DNA from: a virus
DNA length: 42,219 nt
Reading direction: 5' to 3' (one strand)
IMG/VR virus record: IMGVR_UViG_3300042691_025039
Coordinates: 1 to 42,219 of that record
In this document: piece after piece, positions 4,133-11,145 of the stretch
Position numbering within the stretch: the stretch's first letter is position 1
Layout of the letters: each line of letters opens with the position of its first letter
The notes under the pieces: model-generated
Database searches by the model: none
What the model was told of the DNA's origin: nothing
Seen by the model: the letters and a program-made list of their open reading frames with translations, nothing else
Made by a program: the position numbers and the translations under genes

Positions 4133-7100
4133 ATGGCTATCGAGAAAGATCTTAACGTATCTCCATACTTTGACGACTACGACGAAAAAAAGAACTTCCA
4201 TAGAGTTCTGTTTAAGCCAGGCGTAGCTGTACAGGTTAGAGAACTAAACCAACTCCAGGCTATTCTACAGAATCAAGTTGAACGTTTCGGCAATAACATC
4301 TATAAGAGAGGAACTATCATAGATGGTTGTTCTTTCTCTTTTGATGATACTGTAAGATATGTTAAGCTTCTAGATAATGACTTCTATGGTGTTCCTGTAA
4401 ATCTTAGTATTTTAAATAATTCTAGCTTCAGAGTAAAGAATGGAAACAATGTTTTATCAACTATTGTTAACGTTTCTGATGGATATGAAACAACAGATCC
4501 GGATCTAAAAACTCTTTATATTCGTTATAGAAACGCAGGCGATTCTGGTTCTGAATATTCATATGATCCTAACCAAGTATTAACTGTTTATCATAAGAAT
4601 AAAAGACTCGGCGATATTACTGTAAATAATGGTTCTCTTAATTTCTCGAACTCAGATAGCGTTATTATAACACCGCAGGTCGCTGTAAATGTTACTTCCG
4701 GCACATTTACAAATGGTCAATATATTACTGATACAACTACTGGTGCTAATGTACAAATTATCGGTGTTGATACAACTACATATTCTGCTAACAGTTGGAT
4801 TCTCCTTAAATTAAAACCGCGTGATTCTGCATTAGCAGATGTAAATGCTACATCTAATTCGTGGTCGGTTGATGTAGGAAATGAAATAACAACAAATACT
4901 GCAGTAGCTACTGTTATAACAAAGTTTGGTAATGGTGCTCTTGGCTTCATTAGAACTACAGCTGCAGGAAAAATTAGTAGTATAACTTTGACTGCAAGAG
5001 GCAGTGAATATGAACATGTTCCAACTGTTAGAGTAAGATCTATCGGCAATGAAGCGGCGCTTGGTAACTTAGATCTTGAAGCTAGAAACTTTTATACAAA
5101 GTTAGTAATAGCTGATGGAAATACTGCTGTTGGCAACAGTTATCAATTTGGTGTTAGTGAAGGTGTTATCTATCAAAAAGGTCACTTCATTAGAGTTGAA
5201 CCACAATCAATTATTGTTTCTAAATATAACAATGTACCAAATAATGTTTCTGTTGTTTTCCAAACTAATGAAGATATCATTAATTCTAATATCGATACTT
5301 CTCTATTGGATAATGCTCTTGGTACAGAAAATGAAACAGCACCGGGTGCCGACAGACTAAAACTTACGGCAAATTTAGTTGTACAAACAACAGCAAATGC
5401 CGAAGCCAATTCGGAAACTTATATATTAACTAGTTTTTCCGAAGGTTATCCATTTAGACAAAACCAGTTTACAGCTTTTAATGCTATAAATGACGAGATG
5501 GCAGAAAGAACAAAAGATCAATCAGGAAACTTTGTTCTAGATCCTTTTGCTATGACAACTAGATCACCATCTAATACTGCTTACGAAGGAAATACATTCT
5601 CAATCGTTGTTGATCCTGGCAGAGCATATATTAGTGGTTATAGAGTAACAACTAAATCTAACTTTGTATTAGACGTTCCTAAGTCTTTAGACACCGTAAC
5701 AGCAAACCTCAATATAAGTTTGAACTATGGTAACTATATTAGAGTTTCTGATGTTGCTGGTATGTTCCAATTTAATACAGGTGATATAGTTAAGTTATAT
5801 GATACTGCTAAAGATTATATTGCAAACTCAGACTTGGCTACTTCTGAATCAATAACACCTGCAGGAACAAATATAGGTCAGGCAAGAGTTAGATCACTAG
5901 TGCTTGAAAATGGTGTAGCTGGTACATCTTCTGCTGTTTATCGTCTCTATCTTTTCCAAGTTAATGTATATCCAGGATATAACTTTAAAGATGCCAGAAG
6001 CGTATATTATGATGGCACAATCAAGGGTATAGCTGACATAATCTTAGATTATGATGCTACATCAAATTCTGATATTGCTGTATCAAAAGATAGTAAAAAT
6101 GGTAAACTAGTATTTAATGCTGGTAAAACTATTAAGAACGCTAATAACGTGAGATATACTTATAGAACTATAGCATCAAACGTTGCTATGGGTGGTAACG
6201 GCACTGCAACAATTTCTTATACAAGTATTGCTGATGAGTTTTTTCCATACTCATCTTCTCTAAGCACATCTGATTTGCAATCACTATATGTAGTACCGGC
6301 TGGGCAGGGTTTCAAAGCAAACGATGCTATTACAGGCACAGTAACTGCTACAACAACATCACCTAACTTAGTTGGTTCATCTACAACATTTGTAAGTGAT
6401 CTTAGAATTGGTGATTATGTTTATGTGTATTCAAATACAGCTAGCTATGATATTAAACTAGTTAAAAATATTGTCAATAATACTCTTATAATTGTTGATT
6501 CTAATGTATCATTTGCTAACACAACAACTTATGTTAAGAGATACTATCCAAGATATATTCCAATTCCCTTCGGTACTAGAGACGGGTTAAGTGCAAATGT
6601 CGATGCAAATGGAAATATATTAACGATAAATCTTGGAAGTGCTATTGAAACACCTTCTAATAACTATACTATAGTTGGTTATAATGTTGAAAGAATAGGT
6701 GCTGCTGCAGGAACTAAGACTGCAAGTAGAAACAATTTCGTAAAGATTAGTACTGCTAATAACACTGCTAATACTATTGGTCCATGGTATCTCGGCGTAA
6801 AAGATATTATTAGATTAAGAAATGTTTATAAGTCAAACAGCAGTACTGTTAATACTAATAGCACAGATGTAACTAGCTACTTCTATATCGATCATAATCA
6901 TAATGAAGATTACATAGATAATGGTTGGCTTTATTTAAACCCTAAATTTAATTTCTCATTAGCTAATACTGACTGGTTATTGGTAGAGTTTGATAGAGCA
7001 AATACTTCAGTAAGTGGTTATTATACTTCTGTATCTTACTTAACTGCTAATGCTCAGCAAATTGCTTTAAATGATTCTAAATCATTAGCTAACTTAAACA

Positions 7101-7837
7101 ATAGCATGCACACTATGGAAGTGCCTGAATTCTTTACTAACGAAAATAAGTATTATGACTTATTAAAGTGTTTTGACTTCAGACCACATTCAAATAATAA
7201 TGCGAACTTAACTTCAAATGTTGCTTTAGCTACAATCAATCCAGAAGAATTGAATGCTAATAACTTATTTGCTAATGTAGAATATAAGTTCCCTCTACCA
7301 GATAGTAGACTTACTGCACAAGTAGAATACTATACAGGTAGAACTGACACTGTTAGAGTTAATAAAAATAATACTATAACGGTGACTGAAGGTATAAGTA
7401 ATGGTGGATTTGCAACTACCGGAAAAACAAGAGATAGCATTAAGATAGGAAATGTTAAAGTACCTCCATATCCTTCTATTCCTGAAAATCCTTCTACACA
7501 GTTACAAGAAATATTAGATAAGCAAATAGCTAGTGAAAATTTTGTTTTCAATAGAATCATTGATAGAACTATCTCTAGACAACTTGATAACACATCACAA
7601 GCAAAAGCTTATAACATGAAAGATATTGGCAGACTTGATAGAAGAGTTCAAAATCTAGAGTATACAGTAAGTCTTTCATTAGCAGAAAGTAATCTAAAAA
7701 ATAAAGTAATTCCAAGTTCTATTTCTCCTGACATTAATAGATTCAAATTTGGATTCTTTATTGACGATTTCTCTAATGATAATTTTACAGAAAAGAAAGA
7801 TCCGGAATACTCTGCAACGTTGGATATAAACAAGTAA
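4133..7837 (+). CDS. DUF4815-type baseplate/tail structural protein (N-terminal part of a split family)
   Basis: 1234 residues. The N-terminus (SPYFDDYDEKKNFHRVLFKP, then VQVRELNQLQAILQNQVERFG) is the hallmark of DUF4815 proteins, which lie near the baseplate genes in cyanophage and other marine T4-like phages. Middle part: long Asn/Thr/Val-rich beta regions. Last 100 residues: IGRLDRRVQNLEYTVSLSLAE followed by RFKFGFFIDDFSNDNF and EYSATLDINK. In relatives as I recall them this block sits in the middle of a longer protein, so the gene here appears to end early, with the remaining family regions carried by the next two genes. Ribosome site AAGGGG ten bases upstream. Role inferred: baseplate periphery or fibre attachment. 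Confidence 0.8.
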   Translation: MAIEKDLNVSPYFDDYDEKKNFHRVLFKPGVAVQVRELNQLQAILQNQVERFGNNIYKRGTIIDGCSFSFDDTVRYVKLLDNDFYGVPVNLSILNNSSFRVKNGNNVLSTIVNVSDGYETTDPDLKTLYIRYRNAGDSGSEYSYDPNQVLTVYHKNKRLGDITVNNGSLNFSNSDSVIITPQVAVNVTSGTFTNGQYITDTTTGANVQIIGVDTTTYSANSWILLKLKPRDSALADVNATSNSWSVDVGNEITTNTAVATVITKFGNGALGFIRTTAAGKISSITLTARGSEYEHVPTVRVRSIGNEAALGNLDLEARNFYTKLVIADGNTAVGNSYQFGVSEGVIYQKGHFIRVEPQSIIVSKYNNVPNNVSVVFQTNEDIINSNIDTSLLDNALGTENETAPGADRLKLTANLVVQTTANAEANSETYILTSFSEGYPFRQNQFTAFNAINDEMAERTKDQSGNFVLDPFAMTTRSPSNTAYEGNTFSIVVDPGRAYISGYRVTTKSNFVLDVPKSLDTVTANLNISLNYGNYIRVSDVAGMFQFNTGDIVKLYDTAKDYIANSDLATSESITPAGTNIGQARVRSLVLENGVAGTSSAVYRLYLFQVNVYPGYNFKDARSVYYDGTIKGIADIILDYDATSNSDIAVSKDSKNGKLVFNAGKTIKNANNVRYTYRTIASNVAMGGNGTATISYTSIADEFFPYSSSLSTSDLQSLYVVPAGQGFKANDAITGTVTATTTSPNLVGSSTTFVSDLRIGDYVYVYSNTASYDIKLVKNIVNNTLIIVDSNVSFANTTTYVKRYYPRYIPIPFGTRDGLSANVDANGNILTINLGSAIETPSNNYTIVGYNVERIGAAAGTKTASRNNFVKISTANNTANTIGPWYLGVKDIIRLRNVYKSNSSTVNTNSTDVTSYFYIDHNHNEDYIDNGWLYLNPKFNFSLANTDWLLVEFDRANTSVSGYYTSVSYLTANAQQIALNDSKSLANLNNSMHTMEVPEFFTNENKYYDLLKCFDFRPHSNNNANLTSNVALATINPEELNANNLFANVEYKFPLPDSRLTAQVEYYTGRTDTVRVNKNNTITVTEGISNGGFATTGKTRDSIKIGNVKVPPYPSIPENPSTQLQEILDKQIASENFVFNRIIDRTISRQLDNTSQAKAYNMKDIGRLDRRVQNLEYTVSLSLAESNLKNKVIPSSISPDINRFKFGFFIDDFSNDNFTEKKDPEYSATLDINK

Positions 7838-7848
7838 ATAGGAATAAG

Positions 7849-7865
7849 AATTCATGAATTTTTTT
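7849..7865 (+). terminator. Weak stem with T-run after the DUF4815 gene (possible terminator)
   Basis: The perfect palindrome AATTCATGAATT (7849-7860) is followed directly by further T residues (7 Ts in all, 7859-7865). The stem is A/T-rich and short, so it could only weakly attenuate transcription before the acidic gene at 7879. It could equally be chance in A+T-rich DNA. Confidence 0.2.
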
Positions 7866-7878
7866 AAGGTAAAAAACT

Positions 7879-8340
7879 ATGTTATATCCTCTTAGAGAAA
7901 ATCTTTATATTGCTGTAGATGGCAGCGGAGAACCGGCTTATCAAGAGTTTCAAATAGTTTCTCAGCCTATAGCAACATATGTTTATGTTCCACCGACAAC
8001 TGGAACCGGTGTTGTAACACCACCTGTAACTGGTGGTACTGGCACCGGTGTTATTGATACTGGTGGCACTGGTGTTGATTGGACAGGAACAGGCGTTGTA
8101 ACACCACCTGTAACTGGTGGTACTGGTGTTGTTGATACTGGCACCGGCGTTGGTGTAGATTATCCGGAACACGATGATGGCGATGATGATGACGACGACG
8201 ATGATGGTGTTGGATGCACTGGAGATACAGACACCGGCAACTCATGTACATCAGCTGATTCAGAAGATGATGATGCCGATGATGATGCCGATGATGATGC
8301 AGGTGACGATGATGATGGTGGTGACGATGATGGTGAATGA
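7879..8340 (+). CDS. Thr/Gly-repeat and poly-aspartate protein
   Basis: 153 residues in three parts. Residues 1-35 (MLYPLRENLYIAVDG) resemble the segment that follows the FxDxF block in DUF4815-type proteins. Residues 36-95 are repeats of Thr/Gly/Val/Pro (TGTGVV, TPPVTGG), partly coded by an exact 32-bp direct repeat. Residues 96-153 are extremely acidic: runs of Asp, with GCTGDTDTGNSC between them. It has no membrane segment. The start has AAGGT eight bases upstream. The function is not recognised; an acidic flexible linker, a cation-binding tail or a spacer between two tail proteins are possible. Lies between the DUF4815 protein and the 917-residue protein, in the same frame as the latter but separated from it by stop codons. 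Confidence 0.6.
   Translation: MLYPLRENLYIAVDGSGEPAYQEFQIVSQPIATYVYVPPTTGTGVVTPPVTGGTGTGVIDTGGTGVDWTGTGVVTPPVTGGTGVVDTGTGVGVDYPEHDDGDDDDDDDDGVGCTGDTDTGNSCTSADSEDDDADDDADDDAGDDDDGGDDDGE
8011..8126 (+). repeat. Exact 32-bp direct repeat pair inside the Thr/Gly gene
   Basis: Bases 8011-8042 and 8095-8126 are identical (beginning GTTGTAACACCACC), 84 bases apart start to start. Between and after them are degenerate ACTGG(T/C) motifs. Such repeats can change copy number by slippage or recombination. Confidence 0.9.
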
Positions 8341-8391: not shown

Positions 8392-11145
8392 ATGGTAGCA
8401 TTTAACAAGCTGAGAAGATCAAATAGATTTAAACTCAATAAAGCTTCTCTAGAATTTAGAACTTATGGATTGAAGCCAAATACTATCTACAATTTTGTAG
8501 ATGAGTACGGCCAAGATTTAAATTCATACACTCAGCAAGTTAAAAAAGGCGAAAATTATAACGCTGTTTTTAGTTATTATTATGCTAATCAAAGATCTCC
8601 AAATCAAGACACTGATGGATATTATATTCCATATTCTCATAGTAATATTCATTATGAGATTCTTTTTAATGATTATAACTATTCAGACTTAAATACAAAA
8701 ATTGATAATGTAATTGAAATCGGTAATATTGGTGATCCATTAAAATCTGATGAAAATGGAATGCTTGCTTTTTATTACTATCATCCGGATACTAATAATC
8801 TCACAGATGACCTTGTTAACAATACTTCATTAAAAGTTAACAGATATAAAGACTTTTTATTCAAAACTTATAAATTGACTCTTCCGGATGGAACTCATAC
8901 TGTTAATATTAATCCTGGTAAAAAGTTTGTTAAAAGCAAAAATATTGATAAGACTGATAATTCTACGTTTACAGAAAGAGTTTCTTCTGCAGAAAAAATA
9001 TATTTTAACCTTGCACAAACTTTTTATATAGATGCAGATGCTGTAAATAATGCTACTGAAGTTTTCATTAGTAGCGTTGATTTATATTTTAAATCAAAAT
9101 CAAGCCCAAACTCAACTACAACAATAAGTGCTATAGAAGAACCAGGTTGCAGCGTTAGTATTGTTCCTACAAAAGATAGAATACCTATTATTGATGAAAT
9201 TTCATCAATGCCATTTTCTAGATTAGAGTATAGTTATATCGGTGTTGATGCAACTTCTGCTTCAGTTAAAACAAAATGTGTTTTTCCAAACTTAGTAAAT
9301 GTTAAAACTAATACAGAATATGCTATACTAATTAAGTTTGATGGAAATTCTAATTATAAGCTTTGGGCTAGCACAGAAGGTGAATATATCTTAGGTACTA
9401 CAGATAAAACTGCAGGACCAGCCGGCAAATATATTGGAAACTACTATAGCTATTCTAGTTCAGGAAATAGCTGGATACCGAACAATAATACTGATTTAAA
9501 ATTTAACGTTAATATTGCACGATTTGCAACAAACGGAACACCTTTTAATGCAAATTTATCTAACATTATTGTTAGAAATAATAGTAGAGAATTTATACAC
9601 TTTAATGAATTAAGTTCTTCTGCTAAAGATTTTAAACACAATGAAAAAGTTTATCAAGTACAAGCTAATGCTACTGGAAATATTTCTGTAAGTAATACTT
9701 CTACAACTATTACCGGAAATGGAACATTATTTGATAGTTATTTTGATCAAGGTTCTGATTATGAATGGATAGTTATCCAAAATTCTGGTGGTCAAAACGA
9801 ACTTAGAGAAGTTATTTCAGTAACTTCAAATACGGTTTTAACAATCGATAGACCAACTAGCTTTACAAATACAGCATGTAAGTTTTATAAAGCTCCAGTT
9901 GCTTGGGTAGAAGCAGTGAAATCTTCTCATCTAGATGGTGGAAAATCTAACTTATTAGTATTAGCTTTTTCGCAAGCCAACAGCTCTCTTAAGTTTTCAA
10001 ACAACGGAACAATTTATGGTTCTGTAACTAATGCTTATGTAACTAATACTCAGATAATAGATATAAAAGTAAACGAATCTTCTTTGGCATTAGATTTAAT
10101 TAATCCTGCTCAAGTAGAGTATAGCACTGATATAACTTTTAATTATACACTAGATGCTGGCGGTAATACTATAGTAGATGCTACACCATTTACAAGAAAT
10201 GTAAGTAACTTTACAAGCTATACTTTTACACCACAAGATGCAGTAGTTGTGCCTTCTAGATCAAATGAAATTTCTGCAATTGTTGCTAGCGGAACGCCAA
10301 CAGTTTATGCTAATGATTATGGTAATTCTGTAGTATTGCAAGTAACACCAACTGTTGTTAATGACTTTGTCTCACCAAAAATCGGTGTTCTAAAAGATGT
10401 TGTTCTAACAAGATACGTCATTAATAATGATTATACAAATGAAAATACTAAGTATGGTAATGCTTATAGTAAACATATCACTACTAAAGTAAATCTTGAA
10501 GCTAATGTTGCGGCAGAAGATCTGTTAGTTTATATTAATGCATATAGACCAATTGGAACGGATGTAAAAGTATTTGCTAAAGTATATAATAACTTAGATA
10601 TAGATGCATTTGATGATAAAGATTGGACTCTTTTAGAACAAAAGAGTTCTGCTGTAAATGCTTATTCTAAAAACAAGAATGATATAATTGAATATACTTT
10701 TGGTTTTAGTCAGTATCCTAATACAGAATTTACTTCTGTTGGTTATGTATCAACAGTAATTGATCAGTCAAATGTTACTGGAACAAATACAACATTTACT
10801 ACCGATTTTGCTACGAACGATCTAGTTAAAATATATCCTTCGTTGTTCCCGAATAACTATATTGTTGGTGTAGTTGATAGCGTTACTAGTAATACTCTAC
10901 TGACTCTAAAAACACCAATAACAAATAATAGTATCACTGGATCTGGCTTAAAGATTGATAAGTTACAATATAAGTATCAAGCTTTTAACAATATTACAAC
11001 TGATAACGTTGCAAGATATTACAGTTCTAGCATGACAGAGTTTGATAAGTTTAATAGCTTTAAGTTGAAGATAGTATTCTTATCAAGCAACAATTATAGT
11101 ATTCCATTTGTTCAGAGCATGAGAGCTGTAGCGGCTTCAACATGA
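8392..11145 (+). CDS. Virion structural protein, C-terminal part of the DUF4815-type assembly
   Basis: 917 residues. Around residues 205-225 there is FNLAQTFYIDADAVNNATEV then ISSVDLYFKSKSSP, and further on VNVKTNTEYAILIKFDGNS followed by YKLWASTEGEY. I know these blocks from the C-terminal half of long DUF4815-type tail proteins (a QTFFI strand, a VDLFFKSK strand and a TEYAI strand followed by an xWxAxxGE turn). This supports the view that the 4133, 7879 and this gene together correspond to one protein in relatives. The remaining part is Asn/Ser/Thr-rich beta structure, including GTNTTFTTDF-like repeats that also occur in the 4133 protein. Good ribosome site CGGAGAAA before ATG 8392. The stop overlaps the next start (ATGA). 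Confidence 0.7.
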   Translation: MVAFNKLRRSNRFKLNKASLEFRTYGLKPNTIYNFVDEYGQDLNSYTQQVKKGENYNAVFSYYYANQRSPNQDTDGYYIPYSHSNIHYEILFNDYNYSDLNTKIDNVIEIGNIGDPLKSDENGMLAFYYYHPDTNNLTDDLVNNTSLKVNRYKDFLFKTYKLTLPDGTHTVNINPGKKFVKSKNIDKTDNSTFTERVSSAEKIYFNLAQTFYIDADAVNNATEVFISSVDLYFKSKSSPNSTTTISAIEEPGCSVSIVPTKDRIPIIDEISSMPFSRLEYSYIGVDATSASVKTKCVFPNLVNVKTNTEYAILIKFDGNSNYKLWASTEGEYILGTTDKTAGPAGKYIGNYYSYSSSGNSWIPNNNTDLKFNVNIARFATNGTPFNANLSNIIVRNNSREFIHFNELSSSAKDFKHNEKVYQVQANATGNISVSNTSTTITGNGTLFDSYFDQGSDYEWIVIQNSGGQNELREVISVTSNTVLTIDRPTSFTNTACKFYKAPVAWVEAVKSSHLDGGKSNLLVLAFSQANSSLKFSNNGTIYGSVTNAYVTNTQIIDIKVNESSLALDLINPAQVEYSTDITFNYTLDAGGNTIVDATPFTRNVSNFTSYTFTPQDAVVVPSRSNEISAIVASGTPTVYANDYGNSVVLQVTPTVVNDFVSPKIGVLKDVVLTRYVINNDYTNENTKYGNAYSKHITTKVNLEANVAAEDLLVYINAYRPIGTDVKVFAKVYNNLDIDAFDDKDWTLLEQKSSAVNAYSKNKNDIIEYTFGFSQYPNTEFTSVGYVSTVIDQSNVTGTNTTFTTDFATNDLVKIYPSLFPNNYIVGVVDSVTSNTLLTLKTPITNNSITGSGLKIDKLQYKYQAFNNITTDNVARYYSSSMTEFDKFNSFKLKIVFLSSNNYSIPFVQSMRAVAAST

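Follow-up and report, generated by a model that had tools for sequence, protein, structure and literature searches.

VrlC is described as integral to the two-layered baseplate and, in pelagi- and cyanomyophages, as an apparent replacement of T4 gp7; it is also one of the five proteins common to 35 genomes of these phages (PMC7029224). Members of this family in T4-like phages (phrog_358; DUF4815, PF16075) consist of one chain, of two, or of three with a stand-alone 'GLKPNT' ORF: the two phrog_358 regions are joined in a single gene in phiM12, Rhizobium phage RHph_I1_18 and Pelagibacter phage Mosig, and are carried by two genes in Caulobacter phage Cr30. The solved phi812 baseplate entries also contain a DUF4815 chain (protein ORF65; PDB 9euf, 9eui, 9euj). 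Split genes, like linkers in phage proteins, are of already known kinds. Among T4-type phages the published cases comprise nrdA of Aeh1, genes 39/60 of T4 and gene 43; the split proteins are reported to function in pieces, and gene 43 of phage 44RR to be divided by an untranslated intercistronic sequence (PMC2988022).

The locus analyzed here lies in a virus record of 42,219 bp with a T4-like baseplate module (the whole stretch is hereafter the window), in which a 153-aa ORF, P0001, separates the two halves of a VrlC protein (Table 1). The upstream protein, P0002, scores 150 bits against Pfam DUF4815 (cut-off 30) and matches phrog_358 with E=3e-143 over profile positions 96-1029; its likeness to the phi812 protein concerns the DUF4815 core (chain 9euf, E=2e-17, best stretch query residues 374-526). 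The downstream protein, P0003, matches phrog_358 positions 1404-1582 (E=3e-27). The flanking genes are thus the halves of VrlC, and the head of P0001 corresponds to an internal segment of the same protein; this locus differs from other members in that its extra chain combines this conserved segment with an acidic tail and lacks the usual beta domain. As in the T4-type split genes, the gene is contiguous in relatives and divided here, with an untranslated divider as in 44RR gene 43, but the cases presented for T4-type phages are enzymes, whereas here a virion protein sheds a small low-complexity end across a gap that holds no endonuclease.

Table 1. Features of the split VrlC locus in the window.
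Feature	Coordinates	Strand	Support
VrlC/DUF4815 baseplate protein, N-terminal half (P0002, 1234 aa)	4133..7837	+	DUF4815, phrog_358, 9euf
Intercistronic stretch of 41 bp between N-half and head; TTAAGG SD-like site 9 nt before ATG	7838..7878	+	
P0001, 153 aa, detached C-terminal piece of the N-half	7879..8340	+	
P0001 head, residues 1-39, last conserved segment of the N-half (Y-x-E-F-x-I-V-S-Q-x-x-A-T)	7879..7995	+	segment profile
Thr/Gly/Val/Pro repeat linker, P0001 residues 40-95	7996..8163	+	
Exact 32-bp repeat, copy 1	8011..8042	+	
Exact 32-bp repeat, copy 2	8095..8126	+	
Asp-rich tail, P0001 residues 96-153; 29 Asp, Cys113, Cys123	8164..8337	+	
VrlC C-terminal half (P0003, 917 aa), 'GLKPNT' domain at start	8392..11145	+	phrog_358, motif

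P0001 contains 34 Asp, 6 Glu, a single Arg and no Lys, for a net charge of -39, and harbors the most acidic 50-residue stretch among the window's ORFs of at least 60 aa (56% Asp+Glu; next 38%). The original prediction, made from the letters of the window, had described an ORF placed at the split, with an exact 32-bp repeat and an Asp-rich tail of about 55 residues with two Cys. All of this was recovered: the two copies of the repeat are its sole sites on the plus strand of the window, and the tail measures about 58 residues, including 3 Glu beside its Asp and the Cys pair. The further claim that nothing similar lies elsewhere in the window held for the head, which has no second match there under E=0.38 in unfiltered blastp, but not for the Thr/Gly part, which finds low-complexity look-alikes alone (a minus-strand ORF at 6e-5, others at 0.001 or above). 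Searches of P0001 against PHROG and Pfam profiles retrieved no family at E<=0.001; when the PHROG scan was relaxed to E<=10, the whole protein matched phrog_38696 alone, at a chance-level 1.2, and its 44-aa start matched none. A direct similarity search of the phage collection with the low-complexity filter on gave no match.

Relatives were collected by searches of environmental virus contigs (the best 80 of 94 and the best 80 of 592 confirmed). Both halves were present in 137 of the 182 sources scanned, which comprised 181 loci and the window; these 137 yielded 113 regions unique by exact sequence, near-copies included, with L021 being the window's own copy. Two relatives, L001 and L003, whose flanking protein is 92% and 90% identical to that of the window, retain the P0001 gene. 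Because it is kept in frame in both at 76-77% identity, and because its GC content at third codon positions (0.20) is like that of its neighbors (0.19 and 0.16), P0001 can be taken as a real gene. Synonymous/non-synonymous codon differences between L001 and L003 amount to 11/4 in the head, 16/2 in the Thr-Gly part and 14/6 in the tail; the corresponding counts are 5/7, 17/18 and 14/11 between the window and L001, and 12/5, 16/16 and 16/12 between the window and L003. Based on these counts, constraint at the protein level is clear when L001 is compared with L003 and is weak in the window's own repeat section, which has turned over.

The head could be assigned with a segment profile built from 47 relatives, with the window, L001 and L003 not among its rows. 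Searched against the window's six-frame ORFs of at least 30 aa, this profile retrieves P0001 as the best match (E=6.5e-5; next 1.1), in line with the family-like start noticed beforehand (35 residues then, 39 here); the score of 21.5 bits is reached by none of 1991 scored shuffles (2000 made; best 12.9). The segment alignment kept 53 rows after exclusion of ten named loci and of all rows scoring below 170 bits; omission of L025, L119, L122 and L126 gave the 49 rows of alignment A4, at least 90% of which keep the segment's Gln, and for alignment A5 the near-copies L138 and L142 were left out of 38.

Not foreseen in the original prediction was the origin of P0001: it is the C-terminal end of the upstream protein, detached in the window and still joined to that protein in L015 and L102. 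In L015 the fused N-half has 1441 aa and reads ...FLDIQNKLLYPL...LVSQNIATEP followed by a Gly/Asp tail, and L102 likewise runs from the N-half through a head-like segment and a Gly-rich linker to an Asp-rich end; both continue past the point where the window's N-half stops, so that what is contiguous in these two is separate in the window, L001 and L003. Among the matches listed, an N-half that ends 9 aa past the anchor occurs in just three rows, those of the window (as L021), L001 and L003; in the remaining 69 of 72 split rows the N-half extends at least 114 aa past the anchor, and in 41 rows it continues into the C-half without a break. A midpoint-rooted tree of 76 N-halves groups the window with L001 and L003 at support 1.0 and places L015 and L102 next to this clade, likewise with 1.0; of the leaves outside the clade, 60 (including L015 and L102) have the later break and 13 no break. 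Given this tree and the distribution of break types, the early break, before the head, is to be seen as the derived state. The comparison with relatives establishes P0001 as the C-terminal end of the VrlC N-half, freed by recent gene fission. The two Cys of its tail are missing from the fused tails of L015 and L102, and the pair is therefore not a lineage-wide feature. The L102-type tail has identical amino acids in each of the four contigs examined that carry it (L184, which is the contig of L102, L185, which is that of L151, L187 and L188). One of these contigs is 167 kb long, and the tail shows no length variation within the type.

The segment profile was offered 115 proteins, of which 74 carried the segment at the chosen cut with at least 30 residues after it; the 47 relatives behind the profile come from the same set as these 74 scored rows. 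The next 60 aa are of low complexity in 23 of the 74 rows at the 5% background level and in 20 at the 1% level (19 and 16 of 63 when counted by sequence cluster). The linkers are of TP, PA, GTGNT, NTTP, PPVV or poly-Gly type and differ widely between lineages. It had been anticipated that other low-complexity linkers would occur at this position and that the repeat section would vary in length; both expectations were borne out, the latter by the close relatives L043 and L045 (3 versus 5 non-overlapping GTGNT matches) and by the window versus L001 and L003. An Asp+Glu fraction of at least 0.30 after the segment is restricted, among the 74 rows, to the window, L001, L003, L015 and L102, the next value being 0.14.

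A beta domain of about 120 aa follows the linker in 38 of 69 split tails. It is lacking in L015 and L102, and also in the window's ORF, which consists of head, linker and tail. Its predicted structure is confident (pLDDT 93), and Foldseek returned no match at E<=0.001 (best 0.22); a second-look comparison gave a best Z of 4.7 (C. difficile CspA) and no clear PDB match. With these values, naming of the fold was dropped. A homologous ordered domain at this site in relatives had been put forward as an observation that would speak against the original prediction. An ordered domain does occur there, in the split relatives just counted, but shares no homology with the acidic tail, and the lineage with the tail is without it.

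In the reading that we favor with moderate confidence, P0001 is the end of the N-half set free by fission, its head would be docked on the baseplate and the remainder would form a flexible acidic projection. In the ancestor of the lineage, the last conserved segment would have ceased to be followed by the folded beta domain, through loss or displacement of the latter, and would have been followed instead by a Gly/Thr linker that ends in poly-Asp; both states are seen, and we infer the order of events. The 38-41 bp with a ribosome-binding site would have been gained later, ahead of the segment, and head, linker and tail would then be translated as a separate protein. The head may still dock non-covalently at the site of its former covalent joining, as we infer by analogy, because of its descent and of the precedents reported for split T4-type proteins (PMC2988022). 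Linker and tail, presumably disordered, would stand out from the baseplate arm and make up a flexible, charged spacer or brush that may carry divalent cations: with 29 Asp in 58 residues, cation binding is plausible. No conserved Ca-binding motif was found; the RTX nonapeptide GGxGxDxUx is absent from all three sequences (a single GGTGVD half-match occurs, in the window only), and matches to DxDxDG are by-products of Asp runs. In an AlphaFold2 model of the fused L102 end (mean pLDDT 64), the segment is not confidently packed on the N-half and reaches pLDDT 51-62 in blocks over residues 301-360, low values that would also fit a flexible segment or one that takes on order only within the complex. 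Foldseek matched this model to phi812 baseplate chains alone, as a weak fold match (E=6.5e-3).

Linker and tail might instead be functionless, low-complexity sequence left to neutral decay after loss of the folded domain, which we consider unlikely. The turnover of the repeat section between the window and L001 or L003 (17/18 and 16/16, as above) and the wide differences in linker type across lineages are what such decay would leave, but frame, Asp content and acidic C-terminal end are retained in all five lineage members, the differences between L001 and L003 are mostly synonymous, and a separate origin of an Asp/Gly tail is apparent in the stand-alone ORF of L049 (see below). That the freed acidic protein acts outside the virion, as a soluble mimic of DNA or as another factor against the host, seems to us very improbable. 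DNA mimics such as Ocr and ArdA are folded and helical, unlike the low-complexity tail of P0001. A net charge of -39 with 34 Asp in 153 aa is as strongly negative as a mimic should be, and the protein has its own gene with its own start; such a role is possible for the freed form, yet would be at odds with the fused state in sister lineages, where the tail is still covalently attached to a baseplate protein, and with the retention of the conserved head in a gene that sits among structural genes.

The extra break before the head measures 41, 40 and 38 bp in the window, L001 and L003, respectively, and is without counterpart in the fused L015; no homing endonuclease or remnant of one was found in the 41-bp gap, which is too short to hold a gene. 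In all three sequences an SD-like AAGG lies 9 nt before the ATG, and an in-frame TAA two codons ahead of the ATG closes the P0001 frame. That the break is only apparent, with ribosomes frameshifting or hopping over the 41 bp to make a fused protein like that of L015 and L102, is scarcely credible and was rejected on sequence: T4 gene 60, translated with a 50-nt hop, offers a precedent, but here a TAG is met at once after a frameshift at the stop codon, the TAA just upstream argues against frameshift and hopping alike, the take-off codon is AAG in all three where the receiving codon is AAA, AAA and GAA, the gap length is not constant, and the ATG has its SD-like site.

Other rearrangements were observed at the VrlC junction. 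Hint-like domains occupy the C terminus of the N-half, directly ahead of the break, in L005 (9427-11163), L107 (11625-12623) and L122 (13233-13757; the same domain in L138 and L142); the Pfam Hom_end_hint cut-off is reached by those of L107 and L122, and L005 remains under the Hint cut-off. Between the halves of L018, an ORF with a NUMOD3 motif (6292-6840, E=1.2e-9) is homing-endonuclease-like. VrlC break sites may attract mobile elements. In L049 the halves are separated by a stand-alone ORF with a 'GLMPST' domain (8402-8974), which ends in DDYDGGDDGDDGDDGDDGGDD; because this locus is far from the window on the N-half tree (their common ancestor spans 59 of the 76 leaves), an acidic end probably arose there a second time at the VrlC junction. 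The 'GLKPNT' domain was located at the N-half end in 28 of 112 rows, as a separate ORF in 11, at the C-half start in 18 and in fused genes in 20, the motif being undetected in 35 (example rows L004, L037, L017, L015). This one domain, found in different chains, moves between them.

We found no description of a freed acidic piece between baseplate-protein halves in the titles and abstract openings of the VrlC/phage and DUF4815 literature, and our searches of the phage tail literature returned none on Asp-rich or acidic tails. A wider and distinctly doubtful proposal would make the VrlC junction a cut-and-swap site of the myophage baseplate, opened by Hint/intein-like domains and homing endonucleases, at which domains change chains and, in the lineage of the window, an acidic, repeat-tuned brush has turned into a detachable third subunit. 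If true, the length and charge of the brush could evolve apart from the arm. The series from folded domain to fused acidic tail to freed acidic tail would display a virion protein dismantled with its pieces kept, in a family that is reported to be common among marine T4-like phages (PMC7029224). It makes the in-trans docking of a conserved segment on the baseplate a testable question, and likewise the contribution of a low-complexity acidic extension to adsorption.
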